Below, in pieces: positions 6,443-20,503 of a stretch of 56,856 bases of DNA. The first letter of the stretch is position 1, and each line of letters starts with the position of its first letter. The stretch comes from an uncultured Pelagibacteraceae bacterium (lineage in GTDB: Bacteria > Pseudomonadota > Alphaproteobacteria > Pelagibacterales > Pelagibacteraceae), in the NCBI GenBank assembly GCA_902636025.1, contig CACPQG010000004.1:1-56856 (forward strand). The letters are read 5' to 3'. The translations under genes and the position numbers were made by a program. A model generated the notes under the pieces. That model did no database searches. It was not told where the DNA came from and saw nothing but the letters and a program-made list of their open reading frames with translations.

Positions 6443-6519
6443 GGGGGTGTAGCTCAGTTGGTTAGAGCGATCGCCTGTCACGCGATAGGTCGCGGGTTCG
6501 AGTCCCGTCACTCCCGCCA
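6443..6519 (+). tRNA. tRNA-Asp (anticodon GUC)
   Basis: A 77-nt tRNA with encoded CCA. Acceptor GGGGGTG pairs with CACTCCC, including one G-U pair. The anticodon loop CTGTCAC carries GTC, and the T arm is GCGGGTTCGAGTCCCGT. The discriminator is G, as usual for tRNA-Asp. It is much richer in G and C than the flanking DNA, as expected for structured RNA. Confidence 0.97.
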
Positions 6520-6523
6520 TTTA

Positions 6524-6542
6524 ATTGATAATTATTATCAAT
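6524..6542. promoter_or_regulatory. Perfect 9-1-9 palindrome, Fur-box-like, upstream of the nuo operon
   Basis: ATTGATAATTATTATCAAT is a perfect inverted repeat with a single central base. It contains the TGATAAT-N-ATTATCA core classically described for Fur-family iron regulators. It begins 5 bp after tRNA-Asp and lies 87 bp before the nuoA start. As RNA it could form a 7-bp AU stem with a 3-nt loop, but no T tract follows, so a terminator is unlikely. The palindrome is plain in the sequence; Fur binding is inference, and many alphaproteobacteria use other iron-box sequences. Confidence 0.5.
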
Positions 6543-6570: not shown

Positions 6571-6600
6571 TTAAAATGTGACTTAAACATCTCTTACAAT
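6571..6600 (+). promoter_or_regulatory. Candidate promoter of the nuo operon
   Basis: TTAAAA (6571-6576) and TACAAT (6595-6600) are separated by 18 bp. The -10 matches TATAAT at five of six positions. A start near 6607 would leave a leader of about 23 nt before nuoA. The palindrome at 6524-6542 would lie about 29 bp upstream of the -35, better placed for activation or upstream binding than for direct occlusion. Confidence 0.35.
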
Positions 6601-6629
6601 TACACTAAAAAAAACTATATATATGAAGT

Positions 6630-6998
6630 ATGAGCTCTGAATTTTTAAAAGAATATTTACCGATAATGCTTTTCCTTTTTTTAGCTTTAGGACTAAGTGT
6701 TGGTTTTATATTACTAAATTATATTTTTTCTCCGAAAAATCCTGATCCAGAAAAACTATCTGCTTATGAGTGTGGATTTGAACCATTTAATGATTCAAGA
6801 ATGGAATTTGATGTACGATTTTATTTAGTTGCAATCCTATTTATAATCTTCGACTTGGAAATAGCTTTTTTATTTCCATGGGCCATATCATTAGGAACAA
6901 TTGGATTATATGGTTATGCTTCTATGTTAATTTTTTTATTTATATTAACAATAGGATTTATCTACGAATGGAAAAAGGGCGCTCTTGATTGGGAATAA
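6630..6998 (+). CDS. nuoA: NADH-quinone oxidoreductase subunit A
   Basis: NuoA (122 residues) is a small membrane subunit of complex I at the junction of the peripheral arm and membrane arm, near the quinone site. Three transmembrane helices are visible (about 10-31, 64-84 and 92-112). The conserved loop carries YECGFEPF at about residues 46-53, with the cysteine known to change accessibility between active and resting enzyme. Length is typical. It is the first gene of an uninterrupted 14-gene operon in canonical order A to N. A small five-codon frame overlaps its start but is probably chance. Confidence 0.97.
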
Positions 6999-7005
6999 AA
7001 ACCAG

Positions 7006-7527
7006 ATGAACATTTTAGAAAAAGAAAAACAAATACCTGATGAGTTTAAACAATTAGCTAAGGATTTTGCTGATAAAGGTTTTATAACAACTTCATTTGA
7101 TAATCTCGTTAATTGGGCAAGAACTGGATCTCTCCATTGGATGACTTTTGGTTTGGCCTGCTGTGCAGTTGAAATGATGCAAACATCAATGCCTAGATAT
7201 GACTTAGAGAGATTTGGTGCTGCACCTAGAGGGTCACCAAGACAGTCAGACGTTATGATTGTAGCCGGGACTCTTACTAATAAGATGGCACCTGCTTTAA
7301 GGAAAGTTTATGATCAAATGCCTGAACCAAGATATGTAATCTCCATGGGTAGTTGCGCTAATGGAGGGGGATATTATCATTATTCATACTCTGTAGTTAG
7401 AGGATGTGATAAAATTGTTCCAGTTGATATATATGTGCCCGGGTGTCCACCTTCAGCAGAAGCTTTATTGTACGGTATTATGCAATTACAAAAAAAAATT
7501 CGAAATAATGGATCTTTAGAAAGATAA
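7006..7527 (+). CDS. nuoB: NADH-quinone oxidoreductase subunit B (N2 cluster)
   Basis: NuoB carries the terminal [4Fe-4S] cluster N2, which passes electrons to quinone. With the ATG at 7006 the protein has 173 residues, and the cluster ligands are Cys52, Cys53 (GLACCAVEM), Cys117 (SMGSCA) and Cys147 (VPGCPPS). An in-frame TTG at 6985 would add seven residues inside the nuoA end, but the ATG gives the usual NuoB N-terminus and is preferred. The gap to nuoA is 7 bp and to nuoC 4 bp, consistent with one polycistronic transcript. Confidence 0.96.
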
Positions 7528-7531
7528 TCTA

Positions 7532-8125
7532 ATGTTTTCACTACAAGATTTAGAAAAAAAAATTAATTCTGAATTAACAACTAAAATTAATTCATCAAAA
7601 ATTCATCATTCTCAAATCTACATTTCAATAGATGGTGAAGACTTACTTGAAGTTATACTTTTTTTAAAAAATAATGAAAATACAAAATTTAGACAATTAA
7701 TAGATATAACAGCAGTTGATTATCCCCAAAATGATAAAAGATTTAAGTTAGTATATCTATTATTAAGTCATGAATATAATAAGCGAACAATAATTGAATG
7801 TTTTATTAATGAGGATGAAATAATTAATTCCATAACATCAATCTTCCCAGCAGCTAATTGGATGGAAAGGGAAGTTTTCGATATGTATGGTATTAAATTT
7901 AAAGATCACCCTGACTTAAGAAGAATTCTAACAGATTATGGATTCGAGGGTTTTCCATTAAGAAAAGACTTTCCACTTACTGGACATAATGAGGTTCGGT
8001 ATAGCGAGGATCAAAAAAAAGTAATTTATGAACCAGTTAAATTAGAACAAAATTACAGAAATTTTGATTATTCGAGTCCATGGGAAGGTACAAAATATAT
8101 GAATAAAATTAATAAAGATAAATAA
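7532..8125 (+). CDS. nuoC: NADH-quinone oxidoreductase subunit C (30 kDa type)
   Basis: NuoC (197 residues) is a peripheral-arm scaffold subunit that packs against NuoD and NuoB. The family signature is clear: [20 protein letters not shown] at about residues 112-131, followed by [13 protein letters not shown]. Unlike E. coli, where NuoC and NuoD are fused, the two are separate here, as in most alphaproteobacteria and mitochondria. The stop shares one base with the nuoD start at 8125, implying translational coupling. Confidence 0.97.
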
Positions 8126-9300
8126 TGACAAAACAATCAAAAACTTTAAATCTTAATTTTGGACCACAACATCCTGCGGCCCACGGTGTTCTTAGATTGA
8201 TATTAGAACTAGATGGAGAGGTAGTAGAAAAAGCAGATCCCCACATCGGTTTACTCCACAGAGGCACTGAAAAATTAATCGAGCATAAAACTTATACTCA
8301 AGCAGTACCATATTTTGACAGACTTGATTATGTGGCTCCAATGAATCAAGAACACGCATTTGCTTTAGCAATTGAAAAAATATTAAAAATTGAAGTCCCG
8401 ATAAGAGCTCAATACATAAGAGTTCTTTTTTGTGAAATCGGAAGAATTCTGAGTCATATTTTAAATATAACTACACAAGCTCTTGATGTAGGTGCTTTAA
8501 CGCCTTCTTTATGGGGTTTTGAAGAAAGAGAAACTCTGATGACATTTTATGAGAGAGCATCAGGATCAAGACTTCATGCAAATTATTTCAGAGCTGGAGG
8601 CGTTCACAAAGACTTACCTAGAGGTTTAGAAAGTGATATTTCTGAATTTGCCAAGAAGTTTCCGAGAATTATTGATGATTTAGAATCATTGCTCACAGAC
8701 AATAGAATTTTTAAACAAAGAAATGTTGATATTGGAGTAGTCACAAAGCAGGACGCATTAGATTATTCATTTTCAGGAGTAATGTTAAGGGGTTCGAATA
8801 TTGCATGGGACTTAAGGAAATCTCAACCTTATGACTGCTATGACCAGATGGAATTTAACATTCCTGTAGGAAAAAATGGCGATTGTTATGACAGATACCT
8901 ATGTAGAGTAGAGGAAATGAGGGAAAGTTTAAAAATTATTGATCAATGTTTAAAAAATATGCCAAAAGGACCTGTCAAAGCAATGGATGGAAAAATTACT
9001 CCCCCACCAAAAAAGGTACTTAAAGAGTCAATGGAAGCTCTTATTCATCATTTTAAATTATTTACAGAGGGATATAGGGTTGATAAGGATGAAATATATA
9101 CGGCAGTTGAGGCACCTAAAGGTGAATTTGGTGTATATTTAATTTCTGATGGATCAAGTAAACCTTATAAATGTAAAATAAGAGCACCTGGCTTTTCTCA
9201 CCTGCAAGCAATGGATTATTTAATCAAAGGTCACATGCTAGCAGATGTTCCTGCAGTTTTAGGATCTTTAGATATAGTGTTTGGAGAAATTGATCGATGA
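8125..9300 (+). CDS. nuoD: NADH-quinone oxidoreductase subunit D (49 kDa type)
   Basis: NuoD (391 residues) forms much of the quinone-binding cavity next to cluster N2 and is related to the large subunit of NiFe hydrogenases. Hallmarks are [12 protein letters not shown] near the N-terminus, [12 protein letters not shown], the PYFDRLDYV segment, and the conserved C-terminal end FGEIDR. The hydrogenase metal cysteines are absent, as expected for complex I. The start shares a base with the nuoC stop, and the stop overlaps nuoE in an ATGA. Confidence 0.98.
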
Positions 9301-9905
9301 GTATAAAAAAAATTGCAAAGGAACAACCTGAAAAATTTGAGTTTACCAAAGAAAATCTGGAGGTTTCAAAAAAAATTATAACTAAATATCCAGAGGGAAA
9401 GCAAAGTAGCGCTGTAATGGCACTTTTATACTTAGCCCAAAAACAAAACCAGAATTGGATACCACTTGTTGCTATGAAATATATAGGTAAATTATTAAAA
9501 ATGCCTTATATAAAAGTTTACGAGGTTGCGACTTTTTACTCAATGTATAACTTATCACCTGTAGGAAAATATTTTTATCAGGTTTGTACTACTACACCTT
9601 GTATGTTAAGGGGCGCATATAAACTTGTAGATGCATGTAAAGAAAAAATATCTAATGAACAAAATAAAATTTCTGAAGATGGACAATGCTCTTGGGTTGA
9701 AGTTGAATGTTTAGGTGCTTGCGTAAACGCTCCAATGATTCAAATAAATGATGATTACTATGAGGATTTAAATAAAGATAAACTGATACAAATAATCGAA
9801 CAAACTAAAAAAGACATTAAACCAAAACCCGGCTCTTATAAGGGAAGGATGAACTCTGCTCCTGAAAACAACAGACTAACTTTAAATAATACAAAAAATG
9901 CTTGA
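9297..9905 (+). CDS. nuoE: NADH-quinone oxidoreductase subunit E ([2Fe-2S] N1a)
   Basis: NuoE (202 residues) has a thioredoxin-like fold binding [2Fe-2S] cluster N1a in the NADH-oxidising module. The ligands are Cys97, Cys102 (CTTTPC), Cys138 and Cys142 (CLGAC). A C-terminal extension of about 40 residues beyond the E. coli length is basic and Asn-rich, as in other alphaproteobacterial and mitochondrial 24 kDa subunits. The start overlaps the nuoD stop by 4 bp, and the end overlaps the nuoF start by 8 bp. Confidence 0.97.
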
Positions 9906-11229
9906 GGATAAAGATAGAATTTTCCAAAACCTGTATGGAGATAAAGGCGTCGACGTAGAATCTTCTATAAATAGGGGTGATTGGAAAAATACAAAAGATA
10001 TTTGTTCAAAAGGTAGAGAATGGATAATAAGCGAAATTAAATCATCTGAACTTAGAGGTAGAGGTGGAGCAGGGTTCCCAACAGGTTTAAAATGGTCATT
10101 TGCTCCTAAAGAAGTTGGATCAAAACCTCACTATTTAGTAATAAACGCTGACGAGTCCGAGCCTGGTACTTGTAAAGACAGAGATATTTTAAGATTTGAA
10201 CCACAAAAATTAATTGAAGGATGTCTAATAGCCTCTTATGCGATTGGTGCACATAAATGTTATATTTATGTTAGGGGTGAATATTTCAACGAAGGTGAAA
10301 ATTTACAAAAATCTATTGACGAGGCTTATAGAAAGAAATTAATAGGCAAAAATGCTTGTGAAACTGGATGGGACCTAGATATTTATATCCATTATGGCGC
10401 AGGAGCATATATTTGCGGAGAGGAGACTGCTCTATTAGAAAGTTTAGAGGGAAAAAAAGGTCAGCCCCGGTTAAAACCTCCATTTCCTGCACTTGTAGGT
10501 TTATACGGTTGTCCTACAATTGTTAATAATGTCGAGACAATTGCAGTAGTGCCTACAATATTAAGAAAAGGCTCGAAGTGGTTTTCTAGCTTGGGTAAAC
10601 CAAAAAATACAGGAACAAAAATTTTTTGTATCTCAGGCAATGTAAATAACCCCTGCAATGTGGAAGAGGAGATGGGGATATCTTTAAAGGAACTTATAGA
10701 AAAACATGCCGGAGGAGTTATTGGGGGTTGGGAAAATCTTAAAGCTGTAATTCCAGGTGGTTCTTCAATGCCTATGCTCCCAAAAGATATATGTGAAAAT
10801 ATAAAAATGGATTTTGACTCCCTTGTAGAACACAAGAGTGGATTAGGTACAGCTGGAATTGTAGTGATCAATAAAGATCAGGATATAATTGCTTGTATGG
10901 CACGTATTGCAAGATTTTATAAACACGAAAGTTGTGGTCAATGTACACCATGTAGAGAAGGATCAGGTTGGATGTGGAGAATGTTAGAGAGAATGAGAAA
11001 AAATGAGGCGTCAAGAGAAGAAATTGAAATGTTAGAGGATGTTACAAAACAAATAGAAGGTCATACAATCTGTGCTTTTGGTGAAGGTTCATCTTGGCCT
11101 GTTCAAGGACTATTAAGGCATTTTAAAAAAGAAATTATAAAAAGAAACAATTTCAATCCTCTTGTAAACACAAACAAAAACATACCGTATTTAATCGATC
11201 AACATTTGTTGGATAAGGACAATGCTTAA
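9898..11229 (+). CDS. nuoF: NADH-quinone oxidoreductase subunit F (FMN, NADH-binding)
   Basis: NuoF (443 residues) oxidises NADH with FMN and passes electrons to [4Fe-4S] cluster N3. The FMN/NADH site has [10 protein letters not shown] at 54-63 and [19 protein letters not shown] at 167-185. Cluster ligands are Cys346, Cys349, Cys352 (SCGQCTPC) and Cys392 (HTICAFG). Length and motifs are complete. It overlaps nuoE at the start and nuoG at the end, by 8 bp each, so the NADH-dehydrogenase module E-F-G is tightly coupled. Confidence 0.98.
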
Positions 11230-13258
11230 ACTTAAAATAAATGAAAAAGAGATAGAGATTGAGGAGGGTTTAACAGTCCTTCAAGCGTGTGAATTAGCTG
11301 GGGTAGAAATTCCAAGATTCTGTTATCATGAGAGATTATCAATAGCAGGCAACTGTCGAATGTGTTTGGTTGAGATGGAAAAATCACCAAAACCCATAGC
11401 ATCTTGTGCCATGCCAGCAACAGATGGTATGAATATAAAAACCAACACACCACTTGTCGAAAAGGCAAGAAAAGGTGTAATGGAATTTTTGTTAGTTAAC
11501 CATCCACTTGATTGTCCAGTATGCGACCAAGGTGGAGAATGTGATTTGCAAGATCAATCAATGTATTACGGTATAGATAAATCAAGGTTTAAGGAAAATA
11601 AAAGATATGTCCCTGAAAAGTATATGGGACCACTTATTAAAACCCAAATGACAAGATGTATTCATTGTACAAGATGCGTAAGATTTGCAACTGAAGTAGC
11701 TGGCGTAACAGAACTTGGAGCTATTGGTAGAGGTGAAGACATGCAAATAACAACTTATCTTGAAAAAGCAATGCAATCTGAGTTGTCAGCAAATGTTGTT
11801 GATCTGTGCCCTGTTGGAGCATTAACTTCCAAACCTTATGTTTTTGAGGCTAGGCCATGGGAACTCAAAAAAACTGAGTCAGTTGATGTTATGGATGCTG
11901 TAGGATCAAGTATACGTATTGATACTTACGGATGGGAGGTAAAAAGAATTTTGCCAAGTAACAATGATGATATTAATGAAGAATGGATATCAGATAAAAC
12001 CAGATACGCTTGTGATGGATTAAAAAATCAAAGATTAGACACACCTTTAAAAAAAGTAAATGGAAAATTTGAAAAAATAAGTTGGCATGATGCATATAAA
12101 ATATTAACTCAAAAAATCGAAAAAACGCCACCTGAGAAAATAGCAGGTTTAACTGGAGATTTAACAGATATGGAGACCCAGTATACAGCAAAAGAGTTTT
12201 TTGAAAAAACAATTAAATCAAAAAACCTAGATAGCAGATCAGAATATTTATACGTTGATAATAGTCATAGCTCAAATTATATATTTAATCCCTCAATAAA
12301 TGGAATCGAGGATAGTGATTTACTAATTTTAATTGGTACAAACCCTAGGTACGAAGCAACAATGTTAAATGCAAGAATACGAAAAGCTTTTTTAAAAAAT
12401 AAAATTGAAATTTTTTGTTATGGAGATGTTGGAGATCTTACTTATCCTTACACAAACCTTGGAAATGATTTAACATCAGTTAATTCAATGATTGATGATA
12501 ACAATAATATTACAAAAAAAATAATTAATGCAAAAAAACCGATAATTGCTTTTGGCCAATCTTTTTTAAAAATAAAATCAGCAAAAATTTTATTACAAAA
12601 AATAAAAAATTTTTTAAAAGAAAATAAAAAAATAGATGCCTCATGGAACCCTATTGGTATTATTTCAAATCATGCATCTACCGTTGGTGGATATGAATTA
12701 GATTTAATTAGCTCTAATGATGGCTCTAATAAAGTATTAGATAGTATTAAAGAAAATAAAAATGAAATAATTTTTTTATTTGGGCAAGATGATCTTAATT
12801 TTGAAAAAAAAAACGAGTTTATAGTTTATTTAGGTAGTCATGGAGATAGGGGTGCAGAAATGTCAGATCTAATTTTGCCAGGTGCAGCGTATACAGAAAA
12901 AGAAAGTCATTATACAAATCTTGAAGGAAAATTACAAAAATCTTATCTTGCTTCATACCCTCCCGGTGATGCTAAAGATGATTGGTCAATAATAAATGAA
13001 ATATCTGAATTAATTAAAAGAAGAAAACTTTTTAATAATAAATCTGAAGTTGTAGATAAAATCGAGAATTATCTTAAAATTAAAAAGGAAATGAAATTAT
13101 TAGACTCAAGCCAAGATAAAATGAACTATGAGAATGAAAAAATTAATATTGATAATATTGACTATTATTATAGCAATGTAATTGCTAGAGCTTCAAAAAC
13201 CATGTCAGATTGTAGAAATAATTTTATAAAAACCAAGAAGACTGGAACTGATGGATAA
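11222..13258 (+). CDS. nuoG: NADH-quinone oxidoreductase subunit G (75 kDa type)
   Basis: NuoG (678 residues) carries several iron-sulfur clusters of the electron wire. The N-terminal ferredoxin-like domain has Cys34, Cys45, Cys48 and Cys62 for [2Fe-2S] N1b. The N5 site has His94, Cys98, Cys101 and Cys107. The N4 site has Cys146, Cys149, Cys152 and Cys196. The remainder is a degenerate molybdopterin-oxidoreductase-like domain with no cofactor. The additional N7 cluster cysteines of E. coli are not evident, and the length is nearer the mitochondrial 75 kDa subunit than E. coli NuoG (about 900 residues). Confidence 0.97.
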
Positions 13259-13260
13259 AA

Positions 13261-14259
13261 ATGGAATACCTTAATATTTTATTTTCTGAAACTTATAAAA
13301 TTTTATTTTTGCTTCTGCCTTTGCTAACTGCTGTAGCAATGATTGTCTGGCTTGATAGAAGAGTATGGGCGTTTGTACAAAAAAGAAAAGGCCCTAATGT
13401 GGTTGGACCTTTTGGATTGTTTCAATCCCTTGCCGATGCCTTAAAATATATATTTAAAGAAATTATTATTCCTGCAAGTTCTAACAAAATAGTTTTCATA
13501 CTAGCACCTATAATTACAATGACATTAGCTTTAATCTCCTGGGCAGTTATCCCTTTTAGTGAAAACTATGTGTTGGCTGATATAAATGTTGGTATCCTTT
13601 ATTTGTTTGCTGTCTCGTCATTAGGTGTTTATGGAATAATAATGGGAGGCTGGTCATCAAATTCAAAATATCCTTTTTTGGGTGCAATAAGATCTGCAGC
13701 CCAAATGGTATCATATGAAGTATCTATTGGGGTTATTATTATAAATGTTTTACTTTGTGTTGGTTCATTAAATCTTACAGATATTGTTATGGCTCAAAAA
13801 AAAATATGGTTTATAATTCCACTTTTCCCAATGTTTGTAATATTTTTTATATCCGCTTTAGCTGAAACAAACAGACCACCATTTGATTTACCAGAAGCAG
13901 AAGCTGAATTGGTAGCAGGTTATCAAACAGAGTATTCGGGAATGATGTATGCAATGTTTTGGCTAGGTGAATATGCAAACATTTTATTAATGTGTGCAAT
14001 GGGATCAATTTTATTTTTAGGAGGGTGGTTGTCTCCAATAAATATTTATCCCTTCGATTTAGTTCCTGCGCCAATGTGGTTTATTATCAAAATACTATTA
14101 TTGTTTCTGCTTTTTGCGTTAGTAAAAGCCGTTGTGCCACGTTACAGATATGATCAATTAATGAAACTTGGATGGAAAATATTTTTACCTTTTTCTTTAA
14201 TTTGGGTAGTTTTAACTGCAGGATATCTGCTTTATTTTGATTTATTACCAAAGGTTTAA
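13261..14259 (+). CDS. nuoH: NADH-quinone oxidoreductase subunit H
   Basis: NuoH (332 residues, the ND1 homologue) is the membrane subunit that caps the quinone chamber and links it to the proton channels. About eight hydrophobic helices are visible. Conserved motifs include [20 protein letters not shown], the loop [20 protein letters not shown] at about residues 201-220, and the C-terminal [14 protein letters not shown]. It starts 2 bp after nuoG and ends 3 bp before nuoI. No anomalies are seen. Confidence 0.98.
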
Positions 14260-14262
14260 TTT

Positions 14263-14748
14263 ATGAAAATAGTAAGAATTTTGAAAACAGTTTTTTTAAT
14301 TGATTTTTTGACAGGACTGTTAATTGCAATTAGAGAAATTTTCAAACCAAAAAAAACATTAAACTATCCTTTTGAAAAGGGTAAGATAAGTCCACGTGCT
14401 AGAGGTGAGCATGCTTTAAGACGATACCCTAATGGAGAGGAGAGATGTATTGCTTGTAAATTATGTGAAGCTGTCTGTCCAGCTCAAGCAATAACCATTG
14501 AGTCGAAGCAAAGGGAGGACGGAAGTAGAAAAACTACGAGATACGACATTGACATGCTCAAATGTATATACTGTGGTCTATGTGAAGAATCTTGTCCTGT
14601 TGATGCTATAGTACAAGGACCAAACTTTGAATTTGCAACAGAAACAAGAGAAGAATTATATTATAATAAAGAGAAACTATTAGAAAATGGTGATCGATGG
14701 GAGAATGTATTGGCTGCAAATATTAAAGCAGACAACCCATACAGATAA
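14263..14748 (+). CDS. nuoI: NADH-quinone oxidoreductase subunit I (clusters N6a/N6b)
   Basis: NuoI (161 residues) is the eight-iron ferredoxin subunit holding [4Fe-4S] clusters N6a and N6b between NuoG and NuoB. The two CxxCxxCxxxCP motifs are intact: Cys62, 65, 68, 72 and Cys101, 104, 107, 111. An amphipathic N-terminal helix (about 1-25) anchors the family to the membrane surface. Length matches alphaproteobacterial homologues. It lies 2 bp before nuoJ. Confidence 0.98.
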
Positions 14749-14750
14749 AA

Positions 14751-15374
14751 ATGATAGCACATGCATTTTTCTTTTATTTTTTTTCCTTTATAGCAGTTGT
14801 TTCAGCAATAATGGTTACAGTATCTAAAAACACAGTTCATTCTGTATTCTTCCTAATTTTAGATTTTATAAGCATTTCAAGTTTATTCATAATGATAGGT
14901 GCTGAGTTTATAGGAATGATAATGCTGATTGTTTATGTTGGTGCTGTTGCAGTGTTATTCTTATTTGTAGTGATGATGCTTAATGTAGCAAAACAAAAAA
15001 ATACTTGGTTTAAATCTTCTACTAATTCAGCTCACATTCCTATAGGTATTTTAGTAAGTATTATTATTTTTTTTGAAGTAATTATAGTCATCGGAGGATG
15101 GAAGTATAAACCTGAATTAACTAAACAAATTGTTATATCAGATATAACTAACACTCATTCAATAGGAAATGTTTTATACACCGATTATATTCACCTTTTT
15201 CAATTGTCAGGAATGGTTTTGCTAGTTGCAATGATTGGAGCAATAGTTTTAACATTTAGAAAAAGAGAAGGGTTAAAAAGACAAAGTTATTTTAAACAAA
15301 TATCAAGAGAACGAAATGAAGGCGTTTCAATTTTAAATGTAAAATCTAATCAGGGAGTAAAAATAGATGATTGA
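14751..15374 (+). CDS. nuoJ: NADH-quinone oxidoreductase subunit J
   Basis: NuoJ (207 residues, the ND6 homologue) is a membrane subunit with five predicted helices. The third contains the conserved pi-bulge region around [20 protein letters not shown], important in coupling redox chemistry to proton pumping. The C-terminal 40 residues are polar and charged, likely a cytoplasmic tail. The gene overlaps nuoK by 8 bp, consistent with coupled translation of these adjacent membrane subunits. Confidence 0.96.
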
Positions 15375-15678
15375 AATAGCTATAGGTCATTACTTAACTT
15401 TAGGGGCAATAATTTTTCTTATTGGGATTGTAGGGATCTTTCTTAATAGAAAAAATGTAATTGTAATTTTAATGAGCATTGAATTAATTCTCCTTGCAGT
15501 AAATATTAATCTGGTGTCATTCTCAATATTTATGAATGATATTAGTGGACAAATTTTTACATTATTTATTTTAACAGTTGCGGCCGCAGAAGCAGCAATA
15601 GGTTTAGCAATTATTGTAGTATATTATAGAAACTCAGGAACCATCCGAGTAGAGGAAATTGATAAATTAAAAGGATAA
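15367..15678 (+). CDS. nuoK: NADH-quinone oxidoreductase subunit K
   Basis: NuoK (103 residues, the ND4L homologue) has three transmembrane helices. The conserved membrane glutamates needed for proton transfer are visible, in [11 protein letters not shown] (about residue 38) and in the [11 protein letters not shown] helix (about residue 74). Length is typical. It overlaps nuoJ by 8 bp, and nuoL begins at the base after its stop. Confidence 0.97.
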
Positions 15679-17592
15679 ATGGAATATTTTATTTTATTTT
15701 TACCATTAACTGCATCTATTATATCTGGTTTCTTTAATAAAATCATTGGTGAAAAATTTTGTAATTATATAACTTGTCTATTTACAACGATAAGTGCAAT
15801 TTTATCCATAATTATTTTTTATAATGTAATTTTTTATGGTTATGAAAATAATTTACTTATAGCTAAGTGGATAAACTCAGGAAATTTAGAAGTAAATTGG
15901 TCTATCAGAATAGACTCTCTATCATCCGTAATGTTGGTTGTGGTAAATTTAATTTCGTCTTTAGTTCATGTTTATTCTATTGGATATATGTCCAATGATC
16001 CTCATAAGCCTAGATTTATGGCGTATTTGTCCCTGTTCACTTTTGCAATGCTAACTTTGGTTACTTCTGACAATTTTTTACAATTATTTTTCGGCTGGGA
16101 AGGAGTGGGTCTTTGTTCATATTTTTTAATTGGTTTTTGGTTTAAAAAAAATTCTGCAAATTCTGCAGCAATTAAAGCCTTTTTAGTAAATAGAGTTGGG
16201 GATTTCGGGTTTGCTTTAGGGATTTTTTTAATATTTTATTTATTTGGAACTGTTAATTATGAAGAGGTTTTCCAAAATGTTATATTATATAAAAATACTG
16301 AACTAAATTTTTTAGGTTTAAAATTAAATAGTATAGATTTAATTTGTATCTTATTATTTATAGGTGCCATGGGTAAGTCAGCACAGTTTCTTTTACATAC
16401 TTGGCTTCCTGATGCAATGGAGGGGCCAACACCTGTATCTGCATTAATTCATGCTGCTACAATGGTTACTGCAGGCGTTTTTTTAGTTGTTAGATGTTCA
16501 CCAATATATGAGTACTCAGAATTTGCATTATCATTTGTTACTTCTATTGGAATGATAACTGCTTTATTTGCAGCTAGTATAGCATTAGTTCAAGATGATA
16601 TAAAAAAAATTATCGCTTATTCAACTTGTAGTCAACTTGGTTATATGTTTTTTGCTGCAGGAGTAGGAGCTTACAATGTTGCAATGTTTCATTTGTTTAC
16701 TCATGCTTTTTTTAAAGCTTTACTATTTTTGGGCGCAGGATCAGTAATTCATTCATTTAATAACGAACAAAATATTAACAATATGGGTGGCGTAAAAAAT
16801 AAACTTCCAATTACATATTTTTTAATGCTTATTGGTACACTCGCTTTAACTGGTTTTCCATTATTGTCTGGCTTTTATTCTAAAGATGCGATAATAGAAT
16901 TTGCTTATTTAAAAAGCAGTCCATTAGGTTATTATGCTGCATCCATTGGAATATTTACCGCTTTTCTAACATCTATATATTCTTGGAGACTTTTTTTTAA
17001 GACTTTCCATGGAGATTATAATAATCAATCAATAAAGATTGAAAAAATTCATGACTCTCCTATGGTTATGATTATTCCTCTTATAATTTTAGCTATTGGT
17101 TCAGTTTTTTCAGGTTATTTTTTTAAAGATTTATTTATAGATTTAGACAAAAATAGTCAATTCTGGGAGTCTTCAATTTTCTTTTTAGAACCCTTAAGCA
17201 CAGATCATCCACCAAAATGGTTTTTATTTCTTACGCCTACACTAGTTATATTTTCTATACCATTATCATATTTCTTTTTTGTTAGACGAAAAGATATACT
17301 AAATCACATAGTTGATGGTAATCGACCACTATATAATTTTTTAAAAAAGAAATGGTATTTTGATGAAATTTATGAAATAATTTTTGTAAAATCTATTAAA
17401 AGTATTGGTCTTTACTTTTGGAAAAAAATTGATGGTCTTGTTATCGACCGCTTTGGACCAGATGGTATATCTAGTTTAATAAAAATTTTATCAAATAAAG
17501 CAGTTAAATTTCAAAGTGGATATATTTATCAGTATGCTTTTATAATGCTAGTTGGCTTTTCTGCTTTACTTACATACTTAATTATTAAATAA
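15679..17592 (+). CDS. nuoL: NADH-quinone oxidoreductase subunit L (antiporter-like)
   Basis: NuoL (637 residues, the ND5 homologue) is the distal proton-pumping subunit of complex I. It has an antiporter-like core of about 14 helices plus the long C-terminal lateral helix (about 530-575) that braces the membrane arm. Conserved sequences include LQLFFGWEGVGLCSYFLIGF with the key glutamate, LLHTWLPDAMEGPTPVSALI, and the Lys-containing helix IKKIIAYSTCSQLGYM. Length is full. The stop shares a base with the nuoM start. Confidence 0.98.
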   Translation: MEYFILFLPLTASIISGFFNKIIGEKFCNYITCLFTTISAILSIIIFYNVIFYGYENNLLIAKWINSGNLEVNWSIRIDSLSSVMLVVVNLISSLVHVYSIGYMSNDPHKPRFMAYLSLFTFAMLTLVTSDNFLQLFFGWEGVGLCSYFLIGFWFKKNSANSAAIKAFLVNRVGDFGFALGIFLIFYLFGTVNYEEVFQNVILYKNTELNFLGLKLNSIDLICILLFIGAMGKSAQFLLHTWLPDAMEGPTPVSALIHAATMVTAGVFLVVRCSPIYEYSEFALSFVTSIGMITALFAASIALVQDDIKKIIAYSTCSQLGYMFFAAGVGAYNVAMFHLFTHAFFKALLFLGAGSVIHSFNNEQNINNMGGVKNKLPITYFLMLIGTLALTGFPLLSGFYSKDAIIEFAYLKSSPLGYYAASIGIFTAFLTSIYSWRLFFKTFHGDYNNQSIKIEKIHDSPMVMIIPLIILAIGSVFSGYFFKDLFIDLDKNSQFWESSIFFLEPLSTDHPPKWFLFLTPTLVIFSIPLSYFFFVRRKDILNHIVDGNRPLYNFLKKKWYFDEIYEIIFVKSIKSIGLYFWKKIDGLVIDRFGPDGISSLIKILSNKAVKFQSGYIYQYAFIMLVGFSALLTYLIIK

Positions 17593-19088
17593 TGGATATA
17601 CCAATTTTAAGTTTATTAATTTTAATTCCAACTATAGGGGCGTTTTTCATACTTCTCACAAAGGCAAAGTCAGAAAAGTATAATAGCCATAAATATATAT
17701 CTGTTTTTATAAGTGTAATTAATTTTATTTTATCTATATATCTCTGGTACAAATTTGATAACTCAAATCCAGATTTTCAATTTGTTGAAAATAGAGATTG
17801 GATTTATGGTTTTATAAATTATAAAATAGGGGTAGATGGCATATCAATTCTATTTATAATTCTTACAGCTTTTATTACCCCTTTATGCATATTGTCAGTA
17901 AATAGCACTATTAAAAATCGTCTGAAAGATTTTTTAATTGCAATATTGATAATGGAAAGTTTAATGATTGGAGTTTTTTGCTCTTTGGATTTAGTAATAT
18001 TTTACTTATTTTTTGAGGGGGGTCTGATCCCCATGTTTTTAATTATCGGTATATGGGGTGGAGAAAGACGAGTTTATTCTGCTTTTAAATTTTTTTTATA
18101 TACTCTTCTGGGTTCTGTTTTAATGCTAATCGCAATAATTTATATTTATTGGATTACTGGTACAACTGATGTAGAAAAACTTTATCAAATTGGCATTGAG
18201 GCCAAATATCAAAAAATATTGTGGTTAGCTTTTTTTAGCTCTTTCGCGGTCAAAACACCAATGTGGCCAGTACATACATGGCTTCCTGACGCTCATGTCG
18301 AGGCACCAACCGCAGGATCAGTTCTTCTGGCAGCAATACTACTTAAGATGGCTGGGTATGGCTTTATAAGATTTTCAATAGGCCTTTTTCCAATTGGTTC
18401 AGAATACTTTGTTTCTTTAATATATGGGTTAAGCCTTGTTGCAATTATTTACACCTCTTTAGTTGCACTTATGCAAGAAGATATGAAGAAGTTGATAGCA
18501 TATTCATCTGTTGCACATATGGGTTTTGTAACTCTTGGAATATTTACTCTGACACAGCAAGGTTTAGAAGGAAGTATTTTTCAAATGATAAGTCATGGAA
18601 TAATTTCAGCTGCATTATTTTTATGTGTAGGAGTCATCTATGAAAGAATGCATACAAGAGAGATTAAAAAATACGGTGGTATTATTCTTGTAATGCCCAA
18701 ATATTCAATAATTTTTATGATTTTTACATTAGGTGCTCTTGGTCTTCCCGGAACAACAGGATTTGTTGGTGAATTTTTAATATTGATGGGAGCGTTTATT
18801 GATAATTTTTTAATTGCTGTAATCGCAAGTTTTGGTGTTATTTTAGGTGCCGCATATATGCTGTGGTTATACAAAAGAGTTGTTTTTGGAGAAATTATTA
18901 ATAAAGATTTAAAAAATTTAATAGATCTTAATAAATCGGAGTTATTTATTTTGACATTGTTGGCAATTCCAAGTCTATTTTTTGGTTTTTATCCAGAACC
19001 ATTAATAAATACTGTTGAGACATCGGTTAGTTACCTGATAAATAATTATAATGCTAGTTTAGAAATATATCTTGCAAATAACAAATGA
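17592..19088 (+). CDS. nuoM: NADH-quinone oxidoreductase subunit M (antiporter-like)
   Basis: NuoM (498 residues, the ND4 homologue) is the central antiporter-like proton-pumping subunit with about 14 transmembrane helices. Signatures include YLFFEGGLIPMFLIIGIWG with the essential glutamate, MWPVHTWLPDAHVEAPTAGS, and MKKLIAYSSVAHMGFV with a conserved Lys. It is complete, and overlaps nuoN by 4 bp. Confidence 0.98.
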   Translation: MDIPILSLLILIPTIGAFFILLTKAKSEKYNSHKYISVFISVINFILSIYLWYKFDNSNPDFQFVENRDWIYGFINYKIGVDGISILFIILTAFITPLCILSVNSTIKNRLKDFLIAILIMESLMIGVFCSLDLVIFYLFFEGGLIPMFLIIGIWGGERRVYSAFKFFLYTLLGSVLMLIAIIYIYWITGTTDVEKLYQIGIEAKYQKILWLAFFSSFAVKTPMWPVHTWLPDAHVEAPTAGSVLLAAILLKMAGYGFIRFSIGLFPIGSEYFVSLIYGLSLVAIIYTSLVALMQEDMKKLIAYSSVAHMGFVTLGIFTLTQQGLEGSIFQMISHGIISAALFLCVGVIYERMHTREIKKYGGIILVMPKYSIIFMIFTLGALGLPGTTGFVGEFLILMGAFIDNFLIAVIASFGVILGAAYMLWLYKRVVFGEIINKDLKNLIDLNKSELFILTLLAIPSLFFGFYPEPLINTVETSVSYLINNYNASLEIYLANNK

Positions 19089-20503
19089 TGTCAGAAATTT
19101 ATTACGTAATACCTGAAATATTCTTATCTTTAAGTTTAATGTTTTTATTACTTATAGGTGTATTTAAAAAGAATGGATCAACAATTGTCCATAATTTAAG
19201 TTTATTAATTTTGATAATTGAAATTCCATTAATATTAAATGTGCCATCAAGTAGTGAGTATTTAATTTTTAATGAAAGCTATAAAATTGATTATTTATCA
19301 AATTTTATAAAAATTTTAATTGTTATTTCAACTTTATTTGTTCTATTAACCTCGTCAGAGTATCTCAAGTCAATTAAAATATTCAATATAGAGTACCCTA
19401 TACTAATACTGAGCTCTATTCTTGGAATGATGGTAATGGTCAGCTCAAATGACTTAATAGTATTTTATATTGGTCTGGAGCTACAATCTCTTGCATTATA
19501 TGTTTTGGCATCTTTTAATAGAGATAATATTTTATCATCCGAGTCAGGTTTAAAATATTTTGTTTTGAGCGCACTATCATCTGGATTGTTGTTGTATGGA
19601 TGCTCTTTGATTTATGGTTTCTCTTCATCAACTAATTTTTTACAAATCTCTTATAATTACAATGAATCTACGCAAGGTATAATATTTGGAATGGTATTTA
19701 TCTTAGTTGGTTTAGCGTTCAAAATTTCAGCTGTTCCATTCCATATGTGGGCTCCTGACGTTTACCAGGGATCACCAACTTCAGTAACATTATTCTTTGC
19801 AATATTACCTAAAATTGCTGCTCTAACTGCTTTTATCAGATTTTTATATACACCATTTGTTAATTTAATTGATCAATGGCAAACAATAATTATTTTTTTG
19901 TCTATAGCATCAATGCTTTTTGGAGCCGTAGCAGCAATTGGTCAAAAAAACTTGAAAAGATTGATAGCATACAGTTCAATCAGTCATATGGGTTATGCTT
20001 TAGCAGGCTTATCAACTGGAACTAATCAAGGTATTCAAAGCTCTGTATCTTATATTTCTATATATTTAATAATGAACCTTGCTTTTTTCAGTAGCATTTT
20101 TATGCTTAAAAAAGATCAAAGATATTATGAAAGTATTGATGATTTATCGGGATTATCTAAAAATCATCCAATTTTATCTTTATCATTGTTAATTGTTTTA
20201 TTTTCTTTAGCTGGAATACCACCTTTAGCAGGTTTTTTTGCAAAATTTTATGTGTTCATGGCAGTGATCGAGCAGTCAATGTTTTTCCTTGCAATAATTG
20301 GATTATTATCCACGGTTATTGCTGCATTTTATTATCTAAGAATTATCAAGATTATTTACTTTGATAAAGATATAGGGAAATATGATACCGATCATAATAT
20401 AGGATTAAAAATATCATTAATTTTCACAACAATTTTAATCTTAATCTACTTTGTATATCCAAGTAGTCTTATTTATTTTGTATCAAAAATTAATTTAGTT
20501 TAA
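19085..20503 (+). CDS. nuoN: NADH-quinone oxidoreductase subunit N (antiporter-like)
   Basis: NuoN (472 residues, the ND2 homologue) is the third antiporter-like subunit, next to NuoK and NuoM. About 14 hydrophobic helices are visible, with GLELQSLALYVLASF, VPFHMWAPDVYQGSPTSVT and LKRLIAYSSISHMGYALAGL as family hallmarks. Two consecutive ATG codons (19085 and 19088) open the frame, and either may be used. It ends the nuo operon; its stop shares one base with birA, so transcription probably continues. Confidence 0.98.
   Translation: MMSEIYYVIPEIFLSLSLMFLLLIGVFKKNGSTIVHNLSLLILIIEIPLILNVPSSSEYLIFNESYKIDYLSNFIKILIVISTLFVLLTSSEYLKSIKIFNIEYPILILSSILGMMVMVSSNDLIVFYIGLELQSLALYVLASFNRDNILSSESGLKYFVLSALSSGLLLYGCSLIYGFSSSTNFLQISYNYNESTQGIIFGMVFILVGLAFKISAVPFHMWAPDVYQGSPTSVTLFFAILPKIAALTAFIRFLYTPFVNLIDQWQTIIIFLSIASMLFGAVAAIGQKNLKRLIAYSSISHMGYALAGLSTGTNQGIQSSVSYISIYLIMNLAFFSSIFMLKKDQRYYESIDDLSGLSKNHPILSLSLLIVLFSLAGIPPLAGFFAKFYVFMAVIEQSMFFLAIIGLLSTVIAAFYYLRIIKIIYFDKDIGKYDTDHNIGLKISLIFTTILILIYFVYPSSLIYFVSKINLV

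Follow-up and report, generated by a model that had tools for sequence, protein, structure and literature searches.

The window analysed here, a stretch of 56,856 nucleotides with a GC content of 28% from an uncultured Pelagibacteraceae bacterium, carries the complex I operon (nuo) downstream of a tRNA-Asp gene. The features at this junction are as follows.

6443 to 6519, plus strand: tRNA-Asp(GUC), the upstream neighbour of the palindrome
6526 to 6540, no strand assigned: putative Fur-type operator core TGATAATTATTATCA (7-1-7), inside the 9-1-9 palindrome at 6524 to 6542
6630 to 6998, plus strand: nuoA, first gene of the complex I operon
6985 to 20503, plus strand: nuoB onwards, the remaining nuo operon, presumed to be co-regulated with nuoA

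The sequence between tRNA-Asp and nuoA contains ATTGATAATTATTATCAAT, which confirms, at 6524-6542, the perfect 9-1-9 inverted repeat that the initial annotation had placed ahead of the complex I operon. It starts 5 bases past the CCA end of tRNA-Asp, and 87 bp separate its end from nuoA. Symmetry of this kind is weak evidence, because about one such palindrome is expected per window; three were found, versus a mean of 1.0 in dinucleotide shuffles. The 15-bp core TGATAATNATTATCA occurs in one perfect copy in the window (6526-6540) and in none of 20 shuffles. In the whole assembly of the source genome (929 kb, 83% complete), only two perfect copies exist, the nuoA site and another at contig C3:8638. 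A scan of the same genome at two mismatches came near chance, with 44 sites versus 33 for the reversed control; thus, single weak matches carry little meaning.

Conservation of the core upstream of nuoA

The nuo regions of relatives were retrieved with NuoA as the query, which yielded 95 distinct tRNA-Asp/nuoA gaps. The core was present at no more than two mismatches in 49 of these gaps, where 0.7 were expected; the best match had zero, one, or two mismatches in 8, 29, and 12 gaps, versus 0.01, 0.05, and 0.62 in shuffles. The comparison across SAR11 genomes proposed in the initial annotation therefore finds the core of the repeat conserved. That annotation had described a 9-1-9 repeat with a classical Fur core. 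The core stands, as a rare and conserved 7-1-7 unit, but the 9-1-9 repeat is not the unit of conservation, and its outer bases vary among relatives. Both G000 and the relative G009 retain an intact box despite a 12-bp length change in the adjoining sequence.

The site is absent from many SAR11 lineages, for example from the complete 1.3-Mb genome L019. On a NuoA+NuoB tree, many forks of which are weakly supported, presence of the site is clustered, with 15 changes versus about 33 when shuffled. The site is probably ancestral in Pelagibacteraceae and was then lost several times, since all of the deepest branches sampled (L111, L086, and the L087-L090/L092/L101 group) carry it. A more distant group (L093-L103) is without it.

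The site is not tied to the tRNA. In L011 (G017) and L086, tRNA-Asp is separated from nuoA by other genes; the box is found 189 and 111 bp before nuoA, respectively, and none is found at the tRNA. A role of the box as part of the tRNA was rejected because it stays with nuoA in both of these box-bearing insertion genomes, of which L086, taken by itself, is less clean in that a divergent gene starts on the far side of its box. Genes are also inserted in G025 and G057, and there no box was found at tRNA-Asp or at nuoA. Sugar-transfer and methyltransferase-like genes, recognised by eye, lie between tRNA-Asp and nuoA in L199, L159, L198, L086, and L081, and a similar inserted gene pair is seen in G017, G057, and G025; the end of tRNA-Asp may be an insertion hotspot.

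Fur and the same motif at sfuC and other genes

Two Fur-family proteins are encoded in the genome, a Fur and an Irr-like protein. The Fur (143 aa; genome contig C1:190101-190529, outside the window) matches that of Magnetospirillum MSR-1, which has been solved with DNA and contacts it through Lys15, Tyr56, and Arg57 (PMC4506495); these residues are kept as K15, Y62, and R63. Fur orthologs occur in most genomes of the genus, and the assemblies without one are mostly incomplete.

The motif scan suggested in the initial annotation was carried out across 61 genomes of the genus, in which exact TGATAAYNRTTATCA is enriched (46 sites versus 12 for the reversed pattern, as summed by us). By our counts, about 19 of the exact sites lie before sfuC, 11 before nuoA, 7 beside a 59-aa Cys-rich gene, 5 at hemB (recognised by eye), and 1 at an iscR-like gene, which together make up most of them. 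The gene sfuC encodes an Fe(III)-binding protein, and in Ca. P. ubique iron limitation induces it more clearly than any other gene (PMC2864753); the name is used here on the basis of similarity to binding proteins (SBP_bac_6) and the published SAR11 gene name, not of orthology with SAR11_1238. In the source assembly itself, a contig end truncates sfuC, and the evidence on this promoter comes from relatives. A search with the SfuC protein gave 21 distinct sfuC promoters that were not chosen by motif. All 21, including 4 from another family of Pelagibacterales, carry the box at no more than two mismatches, and many have a second box nearby. With a matrix built from the sfuC sites alone, 50 of 92 nuoA gaps exceeded the 99% null; the window site scores 18.3 of a possible 21.3 on this matrix. 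The degenerate right arms TTCTCA and TTTTCA are common to sfuC and nuoA sites.

The conservation in the gap, the boxes at sfuC, and a Fur with matching contact residues all support the proposed link between the palindrome and Fur, which would be expected to bind here. The caution that alphaproteobacterial iron regulators often use different boxes does not apply to this group, in which an ordinary Fur and classic-type sfuC boxes are kept. Control at nuoA appears to be dispensable, because Fur and the sfuC box are retained, yet about half of the gaps are without the site. Loss of Fur was rejected as the cause of box loss on the same grounds: box-less genomes, for example G012, G013, and G027, keep both.

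Further boxes were observed at other genes. At L005 4579-4675 (genome contig C3:8579-8674), three to four Fur-type boxes are clustered between a 147-aa ORF with no Pfam match and a short Cys-rich ORF. The latter, 59 aa long in relative G009, has a weak zinc-ribbon similarity below the cut-off; boxes beside it are also retained in relatives, and it looks like an unnamed Fur target. In one clade (L119, L125, L134, L135, and L139), divergent hemB (by eye) and a gene of the Asp/Arg-hydroxylase family (Pfam) have a perfect Fur-type box between them; four of the five genomes (G039, G027, G013, and G018) have no nuoA box, and in the fifth, G010, no nuoA was found. Another perfect box lies beside an iscR-like Rrf2 regulator gene in G036 (L156 1534-1548), a possible link of Fur to Fe-S cluster assembly.

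Promoter geometry and direction of control

Downstream of the box, the gap contains three elements of a predicted nuoA promoter.

6578 to 6582, plus strand: GTGAC element in the conserved promoter region of nuoA, about 32-33 bp ahead of the -10
6593 to 6598, plus strand: possible weak -35 (CTTACA), predicted from sequence and comparison, 17 bp before the -10
6616 to 6621, plus strand: predicted nuoA -10 (TATATA), 8 nt before the ATG, with no TGn extension in this genome

A shared promoter of this type, that is, GTGAC followed after about 32 bp by TATATA or similar, is predicted in 78 of 93 gaps. The nuoA mRNA is probably leaderless, because 6-9 nt separate the end of the predicted -10 from the nuoA ATG in 64 of these 78 gaps (for example, window 6616-6630; L015, L019, and L025). 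The GTGAC element keeps a fixed distance of about 32 bp to the -10 even in box-less gaps and is followed by CAC/TCAC about 7 bp on in many relatives (window 6578-6595); another activator may bind here, near -42.

Measured from the start that the predicted -10 implies, the box is centred at -72 (1 case), -80 to -83 (21), -93 to -95 (17), or -105 (2), with -95 in this genome and -83 in relative G009. Helical phasing is only suggestive, because these spacing classes are 9-13 bp apart and thus match one helical turn only roughly. The distance from the box to the predicted -10 downstream of it is 60-90 bp, and an overlap was never seen. Presence of the box appears to be traded against an extended -10: a TGn-extended -10 occurs in 33 of 34 box-less promoters, and the box in 19 of the 20 promoters without TGn (Fisher p about 1e-5 on raw counts, ignoring relatedness). 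After correction for relatedness, the trade-off is represented by four well-supported independent pairs, a comparison that is underpowered and not significant. An activator that compensates for a weak promoter fits this pattern, which is suggestive. Together, the position of the box upstream of the predicted promoter and the trade-off point to Fe-Fur as an activator of nuo, as in Caulobacter crescentus. This suggests a direction of control that the initial annotation did not include.

We infer Fur binding, iron as the signal at the nuoA site, repression at sfuC, and activation at nuoA. As a joint explanation, it is fairly likely that the palindrome is a Fur operator and that Fe-Fur activates nuo when iron is sufficient and represses sfuC. 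Under sufficient iron, an Fe(II)-Fur dimer would bind upstream of the nuoA promoter and increase transcription of the complex I operon, which is costly in iron. Under iron scarcity, Fur would leave the site, nuo transcription would fall, iron would be spared, and sfuC, repressed by Fur, would be induced. Complex I would then probably be tuned to the iron supply.

The same operator could instead serve repression, with Fur repressing nuo directly or blocking an upstream activator, so that complex I rises as iron falls. Fur acts as a repressor in most cases, repression would suit the sfuC boxes, which have the same motif, and the conserved GTGAC between box and -10 could be an activator site that Fur disturbs. 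However, the box never overlaps the predicted -10, its retention where the -10 is not extended is the opposite of what a repressor predicts, and there is little sense in making more of an iron-rich enzyme when iron runs short. The precedent in Caulobacter is also activation; we regard repression as unlikely.

Somewhat less likely still is that the site is bound by the Irr-like regulator, or that another metal, such as manganese, is sensed. Some rhizobial Fur-type proteins respond to manganese, and the Irr-type box is TTTAGAA-N-TTCTAAA. A second, Irr-like member of the family is indeed encoded, and rhizobial Fur-type proteins (PDB 5fd5/5fd6) are among those close to the Fur itself. Nevertheless, the motif fits classic Fur boxes, not the Irr type, and it stands before sfuC, which responds to iron.

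An RNA hairpin, acting as terminator or 3' trailer of the tRNA-Asp transcript, is very improbable. The palindrome begins close behind the tRNA, and its strand folds at -4.6 kcal/mol (z -2.2), but the stem is A-T rich with no T run, the search found no terminator-like site, and the only Rfam matches are the two tRNAs. Fully complementary arms occur in only 6 of 22 distinct site sequences, and the site remains with nuoA where the tRNA is far away. An intrinsic terminator of tRNA-Asp was rejected on the same observations, namely the missing G+C-rich hairpin with a T run and pairing that is not kept in relatives. For the 9-1-9 symmetry, chance in A-T rich DNA is a tenable explanation given the composition of the window, and it is in keeping with the half of relatives that have no site. 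For the 7-1-7 core, chance is the least credible reading of all and was rejected by the cross-genome comparison: the excess of conserved sites, the recovery of nuoA sites by a matrix from an independent promoter (sfuC), and the box left intact beside the 12-bp length change all stand against it.

Iron and complex I in SAR11

Activation of nuo by Fe-Fur has a precedent in another alphaproteobacterium. The work of da Silva Neto et al. 2009 is reported in PMC6120978 and PMC3751524: according to the former, Caulobacter crescentus Fur binds the promoters of nuoA-N, acnA, and sdhCBAD and activates them with iron; according to the latter, nuo in this species is lower in low iron and in a fur mutant. 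Like the putative site in the genome studied here, the Fur site of this alphaproteobacterium stands ahead of the whole complex I operon. Unlike the control predicted for SAR11, positive iron control in Caulobacter has been demonstrated by gel shift and expression. Caulobacter Fur also acts on sdh and acnA, whereas no box was found at sdhC in 30 SAR11 genomes, and sdhC was rejected as an additional target. A Fur box has also been predicted before the nuoA-N of Gluconacetobacter diazotrophicus (PMC9368920, in the part available); there, the prediction was matrix-based and made in a single genome, unlike the present comparison across relatives.

In SAR11 itself, Fur boxes with the same 15-bp 7-1-7 motif have been reported as always lying before iron uptake genes, namely those for an Fe(III) transporter and FTR1, and the available part of that report names no respiratory operon (PMC4771312). 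Ca. P. ubique HTCC1062 was reported to have no classic Fur box, and a Fur-linked energy regulon was proposed for it (PMC3090418); that regulon also ties Fur to respiration in SAR11, but through non-classical motifs. No report of a nuo Fur site in SAR11 was found among open-licence papers. Regulation of this kind is known, and its predicted SAR11 member appears to be new.

It is possible, though we hold it tentatively, that complex I of SAR11 has switched repeatedly between a weak promoter that needs upstream Fe-Fur and a Fur-free promoter with an extended -10. If so, respiration in these abundant ocean bacteria would be under iron control in some lineages and not in others, and the tRNA-Asp/nuoA gap alone would suffice to tell which. 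Lineages that carry the site can be set against those that do not, as a natural experiment. The sequence of the gap serves as a marker for scoring in metagenomes and for comparison with metatranscriptomes. Iron is often limiting where SAR11 lives, and complex I is one of its large iron sinks. With a conserved Fur site before nuo, the streamlined SAR11 would also be adjusting its iron spending.
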